Shown here piece by piece: positions 6,736 to 9,785 of a DNA stretch of 64,000 nucleotides. Each line of letters begins with the position of its first letter. Position 1 is the stretch's first letter. Below the pieces are notes generated by a model. It searched no databases, was not told the DNA's origin, and saw only the letters and a list, made by a program, of their open reading frames with translations. Source of the stretch: Lentilitoribacter sp. Alg239-R112 (GTDB taxonomy: Bacteria > Pseudomonadota > Alphaproteobacteria > Rhizobiales > Rhizobiaceae); contig NZ_LS999834.1 of NCBI RefSeq assembly GCF_900537175.1, positions 623,406 to 687,405 of the forward strand. Direction: 5' to 3'. The position numbers were made by a program, and so were the translations under genes.

Positions 6736-8142
6736 CTAGATTGAAATTCCTGAAAGTTTCAACGCGATATATTCAACCAAACGACTGGCAACCTGCGATT
6801 TACTCAGATCCGGCCAATCCTGAACATTATCCTTAGAAATAATTTTCACCCTATTTCGATCGCCACCCATAATGCCAGTTTCCGGTGATACATCATTTGC
6901 AACAATTAAGTCCGCACCCTTGCGCTTAAGTTTTGATGTTGCATTATTGACGAGATTCTGCGTCTCTGCTGCAAAACCAACGACAATTTCAGGTCTTTGC
7001 TTATGATGTCCGACAGTTTTTAAGATATCCGGATTTTCAACCAATTCAAAATTTGGGACAGATTTCCCCTTCTGTTTTTTAATTTTTTCACCCGCCTCAC
7101 CTTTTACGCGCCAGTCTGCAACTGCTGCGACCATAATGGCGATATCAACAGGAAGAAGCTGTTCAACAACATCCAACATTTCTTCAGCACGCTCTACGCG
7201 CACAACATCAACGCCATAAGGGTCAGGAATATCTACTGGACCGGAAATTAGCTTTACTTTAGCGCCAGCTCTTGAAAGCGCTGCGGCAATAGCATGCCCT
7301 TGCTTACCAGAAGAACGATTGGCAATATAGCGTACGGGATCAATCGGCTCGTGGGTAGGGCCGGACGTCACAATTGCCGTTTTGCCGAGCAATGGCTGAG
7401 GGCGATCATCAAGAAGTTCATTTGCCGCCATCGCAATAGACAACTCATCAGCGAGACGCCCTTTGCCTGCCTCGCCACTTTCTGCCATCTCGCCAGCCTC
7501 AGGTTCAATCACATGAACACCATCTTGCTTAAGTGCCATCAAGTTTCGCTGAGTTGCTTTATTCATCCACATCTGAGGGTTCATTGCAGGCGCAATGAGA
7601 ATAGGCTTATTCGTGGCAAGCAAAATTGTCGAAGCAAGATCATCGGCTATACCATTGGCCATTTTTGCCATAATGTTAGCTGTTGCTGGAGCAACCAACA
7701 CAAGATCACAGTCTCGTGCCAAGCGGATATGGCCTACATCTTGTTCATCTTCACGCGAAAAAAGCTCCGTATAAACATGATCGGCAGCAAGCGCGCCGAC
7801 CGATAGTGGTGTGATAAATTCTTGCGCACCATTTGTCATAACAGGCCTTACAGACACACCCCGCTCGCGCAAGCGACGAATGAGATTAAGCGATTTATAG
7901 GCAGCAATACCACCAGTAATAATAAGAAGTACTCGCTTTCCATCTAACGCAGGCATATCGTGGACATTAGAAGGCGTGGGCATCGGCGAGGAAACGGACA
8001 TAGTAGGCTCCCCTGTTGACTCATCTAATCCCGCCAGCAAAAGACGCATCTCCTCTTCCATTGATCTACCATTTGCAGCAGCCTGCTCGCGCAGTTTTTG
8101 CTTTATCTCAGGATCAAGATTCCGAATTGTTAAACTAGCCAT
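6736..8142 (-). CDS. coaBC: CoaBC bifunctional enzyme with N-terminal RHH domain
   Basis: The enzyme makes 4'-phosphopantetheine for coenzyme A by ligating cysteine to phosphopantothenate (CoaB) and decarboxylating the product with FMN (CoaC). From the chosen ATG it is 468 residues. Residues 1-40 (MASLTIRNLDPEIKQKLREQ, then AAANGRSMEEEMRLLLAG) look like a FitA-type ribbon-helix-helix DNA-binding domain of antitoxins. A Pro/Ser-rich linker follows, then CoaC from about residue 67 (KRVLLIITGGIAAYK, PAMNPQMW) and CoaB (TSGPTHEPIDPVRYI, NRSSGKQG). The start at 8142 is chosen because MASLTIRN is the canonical RHH beginning and GGAAG precedes it. The TTG and ATG codons upstream would give nine or five extra residues. 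A promoter and an inverted repeat lie just upstream. Confidence 0.93.
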   Translation of the reverse strand: MASLTIRNLDPEIKQKLREQAAANGRSMEEEMRLLLAGLDESTGEPTMSVSSPMPTPSNVHDMPALDGKRVLLIITGGIAAYKSLNLIRRLRERGVSVRPVMTNGAQEFITPLSVGALAADHVYTELFSREDEQDVGHIRLARDCDLVLVAPATANIMAKMANGIADDLASTILLATNKPILIAPAMNPQMWMNKATQRNLMALKQDGVHVIEPEAGEMAESGEAGKGRLADELSIAMAANELLDDRPQPLLGKTAIVTSGPTHEPIDPVRYIANRSSGKQGHAIAAALSRAGAKVKLISGPVDIPDPYGVDVVRVERAEEMLDVVEQLLPVDIAIMVAAVADWRVKGEAGEKIKKQKGKSVPNFELVENPDILKTVGHHKQRPEIVVGFAAETQNLVNNATSKLKRKGADLIVANDVSPETGIMGGDRNRVKIISKDNVQDWPDLSKSQVASRLVEYIALKLSGISI

Positions 8143-8156
8143 AACGCTTCCCATAT

Positions 8157-8171
8157 GATTGCAATGCAATC
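8157..8171. promoter_or_regulatory. Inverted repeat operator at coaBC promoter
   Basis: GATTGCA-A-TGCAATC is a perfect 7-bp inverted repeat with a one-base centre, immediately downstream of the coaBC -10 box and covering the likely transcription start. A third copy of the half-site TGCAATC lies at 8197-8203 over the -35 box. Ribbon-helix-helix antitoxins bind short inverted repeats at their own promoters, so the N-terminal domain of CoaBC is the obvious candidate ligand (inference). Confidence 0.6.
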
Positions 8172-8172
8172 A

Positions 8173-8201
8173 ATTATAAGAATTTTACGCCATCATTGCA
8201 A
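8173..8201 (-). promoter_or_regulatory. coaBC promoter, sigma-70 type
   Basis: On the minus strand, TTGCAA (8201-8196), a 17-base spacer and a perfect TATAAT (8178-8173) lie 30-60 bases ahead of the coaBC ATG. The -35 box starts right at the end of ubiB, so coaBC has its own promoter although it follows ubiE-ubiB in the same direction. Confidence 0.7.
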
Positions 8202-9785
8202 TCAAATTGAAGAATAAGCCATCATTGCTAAACTAATTGCAATGACCCACAGCGCCCAACGGCCTCCACGTGCATAATGAGCTTCTGCTTTGCCAATATT
8301 TTTCGCTGTCTGTTCATCAAAGCGCAAACCATGCTCAGTCATATATGAAATTTCAGACGACATCTTCTCAGCCTGCATCGCAATCTCGGGTGCCATTTTC
8401 CCCAAACGATGCAGCGCAATAAGCCCATCTTTTGCATCAGCTGCAAACCTTGCGGGGCCAAGATTAGATCTTATCCATTCGCTTACAACACTTTCAGATG
8501 CTTTCCACATATTGAAGTTTGGATTAAGCGTTCGCGCAACACCTTCTACAACGACCATTGTCTTTTGAAGCATAACCAATTCAGATCGTGCCTCCATATC
8601 GAACAACTCAGTAACTTCAAATAGAAGCGTCAGCAGCTTTGCCATTGAAATGGTTTCTGCAGATTGCCCGTGTATAGGCTCGCCAATGGCACGAATGGCC
8701 TGGGCGAAACTAGCAACATTATGTTTGGCTGGTACGTAGCCCGCATCAAAGTGCACCTGCGCCACCCGCATATAATCACGCGTAATAAAGCCAAATATAA
8801 TTTCGGCCAGAAAACGACGCTCTTTAAAACCCAAACGACCAACGATACCCATATCCACCGCAACGAGACATCCGTCCTTATCAACGAATAAATTACCTTG
8901 ATGCATGTCAGCATGGAAAAACCCATCTCGCAGGGTATGACGCAAAAAAGACTGAATAAGAACTTCCGCAATATGATTTAGATCGTGACCCGCAGCTTTT
9001 AAGCCATCAATATCACTCATCTTTGTGCCATCAATCCACTCCATGGTCAGCACATCACGGCCCGTTCGCTCCCAATCAACTATTGGCACACGAAAATCAG
9101 GATCGTCTTTCGTATTTTCAGCAATTTCAGAAAGCGCTGCAGCTTCTAAACGAAGATCCATCTCAATCTTCGTTGTCTGCTCAAGCGTTTGCGTGACCTC
9201 AACAGGACGCAAGCGTCTTGCTGCAGGAATAAATTTCTCCTGCAAATGCGAGACAAGATAAAAGACTTCTAAATCATGCCGAAACCGCATTCGCACCCCA
9301 GGACGTATGACCTTGACGGCAAGTTTTTTCTTTTCCCCATTGTCGGTAACTATCGCCGGATGAACCTGCGCAACCGAAGCTGCTGCAATTGGCTCTTCTA
9401 CAACATCATACAGCTTATCAATTGATCGCCCGAGCGATTCCTCAATCTTCTTGACGGCAAGATCTTTTGCAAACGGCGCCATCTGATCTTGTAGCAACCC
9501 GAGATCGGCGGCTATATCTGTGCCGACTACATCAGCTCTCGTTGCCAAAAACTGCCCGAGCTTTACATAAGACGGACCAAGTTTTGCTATACCGCGCGCC
9601 AACCGATCGCTTCGCTCATCGCTGGCATTATTTTTTTTTCGCGACCGCGCAAACAAGCCGGCAAGCCGACTGATGAACATAGCCTGCCGGCCCATATCCT
9701 TACTAATTAGTTCGGATACGACACCTTCGCGAACCAAAACCCAACCATCACGGGCAAGCCGTAAATACGTACCGATTGACGCCAT
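8202..9785 (-). CDS. ubiB: UbiB, atypical kinase of ubiquinone biosynthesis
   Basis: A 527-residue ABC1/ADCK-family protein needed for ubiquinone synthesis, probably as an ATPase that extracts membrane intermediates. Family hallmarks are visible: the KxGQ motif (KLGQ, residues 75-78), an Ala-rich loop (PIAAASVAQVHPA), and the catalytic loop HADMHQGNLF followed by VAVDMG. The C-terminus has one hydrophobic segment (ALWVIAISLAMMAYSSI) as a membrane anchor. It starts directly after the ubiE stop, indicating one operon. A run of nine A residues occurs in the coding strand near 9639 without breaking the frame. Confidence 0.95.
   Translation of the reverse strand: MASIGTYLRLARDGWVLVREGVVSELISKDMGRQAMFISRLAGLFARSRKKNNASDERSDRLARGIAKLGPSYVKLGQFLATRADVVGTDIAADLGLLQDQMAPFAKDLAVKKIEESLGRSIDKLYDVVEEPIAAASVAQVHPAIVTDNGEKKKLAVKVIRPGVRMRFRHDLEVFYLVSHLQEKFIPAARRLRPVEVTQTLEQTTKIEMDLRLEAAALSEIAENTKDDPDFRVPIVDWERTGRDVLTMEWIDGTKMSDIDGLKAAGHDLNHIAEVLIQSFLRHTLRDGFFHADMHQGNLFVDKDGCLVAVDMGIVGRLGFKERRFLAEIIFGFITRDYMRVAQVHFDAGYVPAKHNVASFAQAIRAIGEPIHGQSAETISMAKLLTLLFEVTELFDMEARSELVMLQKTMVVVEGVARTLNPNFNMWKASESVVSEWIRSNLGPARFAADAKDGLIALHRLGKMAPEIAMQAEKMSSEISYMTEHGLRFDEQTAKNIGKAEAHYARGGRWALWVIAISLAMMAYSSI

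Follow-up and report, generated by a model that had tools for sequence, protein, structure and literature searches.

Organization of the coaBC locus

The window analyzed here, a stretch of 64,000 nucleotides from Lentilitoribacter sp. Alg239-R112 (contig NZ_LS999834.1, positions 623,406 to 687,405), carries on its minus strand the gene coaBC for an enzyme of coenzyme A (CoA) synthesis, with ubiB as its upstream neighbour. The enzyme is headed by a FitA-like ribbon-helix-helix (RHH) domain, and its gene is preceded by a promoter and an inverted repeat that may serve as its operator. The features of the locus are as follows.

6736..8142, minus strand: coaBC with N-terminal FitA-like RHH domain, 468 aa, start codon ATG at 8142-8140
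8032..8139, minus strand: FitA-like RHH domain, residues 2-37 (PF22513 FitA-like_RHH, E = 1.1e-16)
7948..8031, minus strand: linker, residues 38-65 (predicted local distance difference test, pLDDT, below 50 at residues 41-60 of an AlphaFold2 model)
6766..7947, minus strand: CoaBC enzyme part, the CoaC flavoprotein followed by CoaB, residues 66-459 (TIGR00521, E = 1.5e-128; PF02441 and PF04127)
8156..8172, no strand: candidate operator, perfect inverted repeat TGATTGCA-T-TGCAATCA, directly after the -10 box
8173..8178, minus strand: -10 box TATAAT, spacer of 17 bp (read from the sequence and recovered in the promoter-pair scan, row L015)
8196..8201, minus strand: -35 box TTGCAA (read from the sequence and recovered in the same row of that scan)
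8197..8204, minus strand: further candidate half-site TGATTGCA, overlapping both the -35 box and the stop codon of ubiB (8204-8202)
8202..9785, minus strand: ubiB, separated from coaBC by an antitoxin-toxin pair in relatives

The presence of a FitA-type RHH segment at the head of CoaBC had been proposed in the initial annotation of this DNA, and the profile search agreed: residues 2-37 matched PF22513 with an E-value of 1.1e-16 and a score of 60.9 bits, the cut-off being 27. Among PDB sequences, the first 44 residues matched FitA (2bsq, 2h1o) best, if weakly (E = 0.016). With 429 bits against a cut-off of 219.7, TIGR00521 identified CoaC and CoaB in one chain, that is, a bifunctional CoaBC. 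A DNA-binding domain (PF22513) and an enzyme (TIGR00521) are therefore combined in the same polypeptide, as in proteins of the PutA type. Homologues begin at the identical point, with MAS[IL]T[IV]R[NK]L, as the ATG at 8142-8140; the list of open reading frames had placed the start upstream, at a TTG at 8169. A single PF04127 match was found in the whole genome, corresponding to one coaBC, and the window CoaBC is therefore likely to be an active enzyme.

An AlphaFold2 model of the protein (mean pLDDT 79.9, predicted template modeling score 0.61) showed helices at residues 11-24 and 28-39 of the RHH part. The RHH strand was not formed in this single-chain model, which may be due to the fold needing two chains. 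The linker is probably disordered, judging from the same model. When the linker was compared with the tails of antitoxins encoded between ubiB and coaBC in relatives, no C-terminal toxin-binding tail was found at E = 0.05 or better, and the window locus gave no match to PIN toxin queries, so that no cognate toxin gene was detected next to coaBC.

The promoter region corresponded closely to what had been read from the letters at the outset: the consensus promoter TTGCAA-N17-TATAAT is present at 8201-8196 and 8178-8173, the perfect inverted repeat follows the -10 box, with each arm one base longer than originally written, and the half-site over the -35 box is TGATTGCA at 8204-8197. The perfect palindrome occurs once in the 3.9-Mb genome. 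Seven further sites with two mismatches were found there, versus one for a reversed control pattern, and all seven fall within long reading frames. A loose search of the window alone, with up to three mismatches, was not significant, as 15 of 100 shuffles reached as many matches. The significance of the repeat in the window rests on the relatives.

The candidate operator follows the RHH domain across loci

The survey of CoaBC took in three taxonomic levels: the family (199 genomes), the order (397) and the class (385). Loci were picked from the search tables, and the counts of loci given below therefore do not measure prevalence. The state of the interval between ubiB and coaBC, referred to as the slot, was scored for 190 loci, of which 187 distinct ones entered the operator counts; L001 and L132 were dropped because they repeat the window locus, and L036 because it duplicates L004. 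Counted among the loci without an RHH domain are L112 and two, L008 and L009, that come from outside the class. The region scanned was the 150 bp upstream of the RHH domain or, where none was present, upstream of a position lying 15 bp ahead of the conserved CoaBC core, the anchor in the latter loci being this core and not a proven start codon.

Exact TGATTGCA was present upstream of 62 of 69 fused genes, in 6 of the 35 loci where RHH is encoded separately, and in none of the 83 loci without RHH. Shuffled controls contained it in 9 of 345, 2 of 175 and 0 of 415 cases, respectively. A wider repeat, TGAYWGCA-N-TGCWRTCA with at most two mismatches, defined after the loci had been seen, was found in 53 of 69 fused loci, in 31 of the 35 whose RHH gene stands by itself and in 1 of 83 without RHH, and in none of the corresponding shuffles (0/345, 0/175 and 0/415). 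Conservation of the repeat in relatives had been suggested early on as a check of its relevance; the repeat is indeed kept together with the fusion and absent where the domain is absent. By these co-occurrence counts the fused gene has, as would be expected of a PutA-type autoregulator, a conserved candidate binding site at its own promoter.

Kinship was taken into account on a CoaBC core tree (FastTree, with local Shimodaira-Hasegawa-like values as branch supports), on which the presence of the RHH domain needs 22 changes. The operator was scored as present when either the wider repeat with at most two mismatches or exact TGATWGCA was found. Among 11 independent pairs that differ in RHH and are separated by supported branches, the operator differed in the same way in 9.8 pairs on average, in the opposite way in 0.0, and was alike in 1.2. 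A sign test gave a median p of 0.002, with a range of 0.002-0.02. RHH domain and operator change together on the CoaBC tree.

Promoter-like pairs of the pattern TTGnnn-N16..18-TAnnnT were found in 45 of 69 fused loci, where shuffles averaged 6.9, in 29 of the 35 loci whose RHH gene is separate (shuffle mean 1.1) and in 26 of 83 without RHH (1.7). A half-site with at most one mismatch touched the promoter pair in 44 of the 45 fused loci and in 25 of the 29 with a separate RHH gene, a geometry that would fit repression by occlusion. On the protein side, residues T5, R7 and L9 of the RHH strand, the part that contacts DNA in RHH proteins, were kept in 68 of 68 fused rows (copies included; L051, which has a divergent RHH, L156 and L190 excluded). 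The half-site is kept alongside the RHH domain in the family of the window and in two more families of the order (f35, f16). A relation between RHH residue 8 (N or K) and the half-site variant TGATAGCA was considered as well and dropped, as it was a trend only (K 11/17, N 9/51) and confounded by kinship. FitA half-sites presumably read TGATAGCA/TGCTATCA; a search of papers did not turn up the letters of the FitA operator, and this reading was not used as evidence.

Operators and FitA-like RHH domains in fusion genomes

The operator with at most one mismatch occurred in 8 of 16 fusion genomes, once in each and always just upstream of coaBC, and the reversed control pattern gave no match in the 16 genomes. 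A PF22513 search of eight fusion genomes, in which scoring covered 150 of 227 first-look candidates in G232 and 150 of 175 in G446, returned the CoaBC domain as the sole FitA-like RHH found in seven of the eight. The exception, G135, has a second one in a separate antitoxin gene directly upstream of coaBC. With a sole FitA-like RHH and an operator only at coaBC, a trans regulator of the FitA-like family appears unlikely on sequence grounds, and so does a wider regulon of RHH-CoaBC. The latter was considered and rejected, since the other sites of the window genome lie inside frames and the strict site, in the 8 of 16 genomes, stands only at coaBC.

A toxin-antitoxin pair in the same slot of relatives

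In 33 of the 190 loci, a gene for a FitA-like RHH antitoxin and a gene for a PIN toxin lie between ubiB and an unfused coaBC, a pair that the initial annotation had not noticed. The PIN gene was counted as full when more than 80 residues aligned. Besides these 33 loci, the slot was fused in 72, held an RHH gene with a toxin remnant in two (L105, L145) and a toxin remnant alone in two (L154, L167). In 19 loci ubiB was adjacent without RHH, 10 showed another kind of gap, and in 52 no ubiB was found alongside. In one of the fused loci, L026, the upstream region still contains both a PIN gene and a separate RHH gene. Pfam searches of three pairs (L103, L165, L115) assigned the toxins to PF01850 (PIN) and the antitoxins to PF22513; NCBIfam, applied to the L103 and L165 pairs, gave only matches below cut-off, with the L103 toxin matching nothing. 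The slot toxins comprise no fewer than two kinds of PIN protein.

The distance from the toxin stop codon to the CoaBC ATG has a median of 9 bp in the 33 loci, and is -4 in seven of them. In view of this short spacing, coaBC of these loci is probably part of the toxin-antitoxin operon. Repeats similar in style to those of the fused genes are also found at the slot antitoxin genes (31 of 35 by the wider motif).

Two further observations concern the contents of the slot. In four loci of Hoeflea, which belongs to the family of the window (L004 and L036 being the same record), an additional FitA-like RHH frame lies upstream of the fusion, either broken or with its PIN toxin undetected (L002, L003, L004, L012). 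A frame resembling an FKBP-like peptidyl-prolyl isomerase, named by eye, stands between ubiB and coaBC in L104, L118 and L004.

Likely intermediates between operon and fusion

Forms intermediate between the two states comprise loci with an antitoxin and a toxin remnant, loci with such a remnant alone, and fusions in which the tail of an antitoxin persists. Linkers matching the tails of slot antitoxins were found in 6 of 69 fused proteins (L002, L003, L004, L012; L075; L156) versus 1 of 345 shuffled ones. In L156, 43 tail residues align at 60% identity and are followed by few residues before CoaBC. The six linkers find their best matches in the tails of three different antitoxins, among which two or more clearly distinct kinds are represented; the tails of L075 and L156 resemble each other. 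Tails from different antitoxins argue for more than one fusion. In a 22-row IQ-TREE tree, fused L156 stands beside toxin-antitoxin locus L147 (100/96) and fused L051 beside toxin-antitoxin locus L152 (97/92).

A single origin of the fusion in one clade was not supported: on the FastTree tree the fused label requires 20 changes, or 19 with L026 counted among the fused, and at least 11 on supported branches. Losses and locus exchange can account for part of these changes.

In genus g73 (L071, L073, L074, L075, L076, L115, L178, L179) the slot is fused, occupied by a toxin-antitoxin pair or empty, with two RHH kinds among the fusions and two PIN kinds among the toxin-antitoxin loci. The site is fast-changing in this genus.

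RHH-CoaBC as a candidate autorepressor

Taken together, these data make it probable that RHH-CoaBC is an autorepressor of its own promoter, derived from a captured toxin-antitoxin operon whose toxin was lost and whose antitoxin was fused to the enzyme. An operon of the FitAB/VapBC type would have been situated between ubiB and coaBC, its self-regulated promoter driving coaBC as well. The toxin gene would then have been lost and the antitoxin joined to the enzyme, separately in some lineages. In the present-day fusion, we infer that RHH dimers bind the TGATTGCA half-sites that cover the start region and the -35 box. More CoaBC would then result in less coaBC transcription through a blocked promoter. 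That CoaBC represses its own transcription had been the central proposal of the initial annotation, and it is supported at the level of sequence by the RHH profile, by the co-occurrence of domain and repeat and by the restriction of the operator to coaBC; co-occurrence, together with a sole FitA-like RHH found in seven of eight genomes and an operator only at coaBC in the 8 of 16 that have one, supports autorepression with a single target.

In the FitAB system, the regulatory DNA takes up four heterodimers on 36 bp, and binding is stabilized by the toxin (PMC3920265); mycobacterial CoaBC is a dodecamer (PMC7794376). The enzyme oligomer may therefore serve as a scaffold, and would probably replace the toxin in holding several RHH dimers on several half-sites.

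Several observations weigh against this interpretation. Exact TGATTGCA is missing upstream of 7 of the 69 fused genes, and fused loci such as L064, L075 and L120 lack exact TGATWGCA. No near-perfect palindrome was found anywhere in 8 of the 16 fusion genomes in the search with at most one mismatch, and the wider repeat was a post hoc definition. When fused loci are compared with loci without RHH alone, five independent supported pairs are available, of which 4.8 go the same way (p = 0.06), a number too small to reach significance. A half-site with at most one mismatch also touches 10 of the 26 promoter pairs in the group without RHH. In the 22-row tree, toxin-antitoxin locus L115 nests among fused relatives of genus g73, which makes exchange of the locus in either direction possible; a tree in which the five fused g73 rows group together to the exclusion of L115 met with weak rejection (approximately unbiased test, p = 0.020), the group having been picked after the first tree. 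Finally, neither a toxin match nor an antitoxin tail was found for the lineage of the window, and a toxin-antitoxin origin there, and with it the direction of change, would be inferred from relatives.

The RHH domain might instead be an inert leftover of a toxin-antitoxin system, with promoter and repeats as relics and no self-regulation by CoaBC. That many relatives manage without domain and operator, 83 of the 187 loci having no RHH, would agree with this. The strand residues T5, R7 and L9 are invariant in all 68 fused rows, however, and the half-site is kept with RHH in three families and found in 0 of 83 loci lacking it, which makes an inert leftover very unlikely. Still less credit is due to the idea that the repeat serves as operator for a different regulator acting in trans, the RHH part having some other role. 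Such a regulator would be favored by the scope of the RHH survey, which was confined to PF22513 and in two of the eight genomes scored part of the candidates, but no other FitA-like RHH was found in seven of these eight genomes, the strict site stands only at coaBC in the eight of 16 genomes having one, and the repeat is missing where RHH is missing.

RHH-CoaBC could also act as an activator, or as a PutA-like switch gated by a ligand such as CoA thioesters, cytidine triphosphate or the flavin state. We consider this unlikely, if a serious alternative. CoA thioesters inhibit mycobacterial CoaBC at its CoaB part (PMC7794376), so that a metabolic signal is possible; the probably disordered linker of the modeled protein speaks against gating. 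An activator is disfavored by the position of the sites, which cover the -35 box and the start region and thus better fit repression. The ligand-gated form is an extension of autorepression, not its opposite. Extended in this direction, autorepression by RHH-CoaBC could belong to a broader picture, tentative and open to doubt, in which type II toxin-antitoxin operons repeatedly settled ahead of coaBC, gained control of its transcription and, once the toxin was lost and the antitoxin fused to the enzyme, became an autorepressor made of one protein. The CoaBC oligomer would then stand in for the toxin as co-repressor and relay the status of the CoA pool to the promoter.

Comparison with known systems

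By analogy, RHH-CoaBC is best read as working like PutA or BirA, enzymes that repress the genes of their own pathway. PutA carries an N-terminal RHH domain. This flavoenzyme doubles as a transcriptional repressor of the operon that encodes it (PMC6978683). PutA is a proline dehydrogenase, whereas the enzyme here is CoaBC of CoA synthesis with an RHH of FitA type; moreover, relatives of RHH-CoaBC hold a toxin-antitoxin pair in the same slot, and RHH-CoaBC has one operator per genome where one was found and no known ligand switch. BirA and other group II biotin ligases likewise combine a DNA-binding domain with a cofactor enzyme (PMC4016012), but with a helix-turn-helix and biotin in place of RHH and the CoA pathway. 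With FitAB/VapBC systems the locus shares the FitA-like RHH antitoxin and, in relatives, the RHH-PIN pair in the ubiB-coaBC slot; it differs in that the window is without a detected toxin gene and the antitoxin domain shares one chain with a CoA-synthesis enzyme. The whole CoaC-CoaB part, residues 69-463, aligns with ordinary CoaBC of Mycobacterium smegmatis (6TGV), the alignment beginning after the RHH of the window protein.

According to a 2021 paper, nothing had been known before it about the regulation of CoaBC in any organism (PMC7794376). Our literature search, which covered open-licence papers, found neither a CoaBC-RHH fusion nor a self-regulation circuit of coaBC, and the strings 'transcriptional regulat' and 'repressor' are absent from a review on CoA synthesis as a drug target (PMC7770189). 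The enzyme acting as its own regulator is an already known kind, represented by PutA and BirA, and relative to these open-licence papers the RHH-CoaBC version appears new. If the interpretation is correct, it would provide a transcriptional control circuit for CoaBC and a case of a toxin-antitoxin operon turned into the control of a housekeeping gene, with likely intermediates surviving in relatives. The toxin-antitoxin pair in the same slot of relatives suggests how such a switch can arise, and other enzymes downstream of captured antitoxins may be worth seeking.

Distribution and variant forms of the fusion

Of the family's 199 genomes, at least 41 showed the fusion, recognized by a match starting at query residue 1 or 2, with split matches left uncounted. 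Elsewhere in the order it occurs in families f35 and f16. Among the matches listed in the class survey, it was found only in the genome of the window and in G232 of the same order. A search with the RHH part among proteins of similar length yielded 327 proteins; among the matches listed, 120 of 120 carry both PF22513 and PF02441. The suspicion voiced at the outset, that the fusion might already exist in databases, was well founded, as this architecture is visible there. Where NCBI gives a name, the fusions are called plain CoaBC.

Variants of the architecture were encountered as well. The N-terminal extension of L112 (G146) was considered as a second type of DNA-binding fusion and rejected, as its Cro/C1-like HTH_26 match in Pfam was sub-threshold (E = 0.023); if real, it would be a second kind of DNA-binding domain on CoaBC. 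P0119, a protein of 367 aa, contains RHH and flavoprotein domains only and bears the source name 'plasmid stability protein/3-polyprenyl-4-hydroxybenzoate decarboxylase'. In L081 (G387), the CoaBC open frame extends over 1205 aa and the ubiB frame runs, seemingly free of stop codons, through the operator region into RHH-CoaBC; a single UbiB-RHH-CoaBC chain is possible at this locus.

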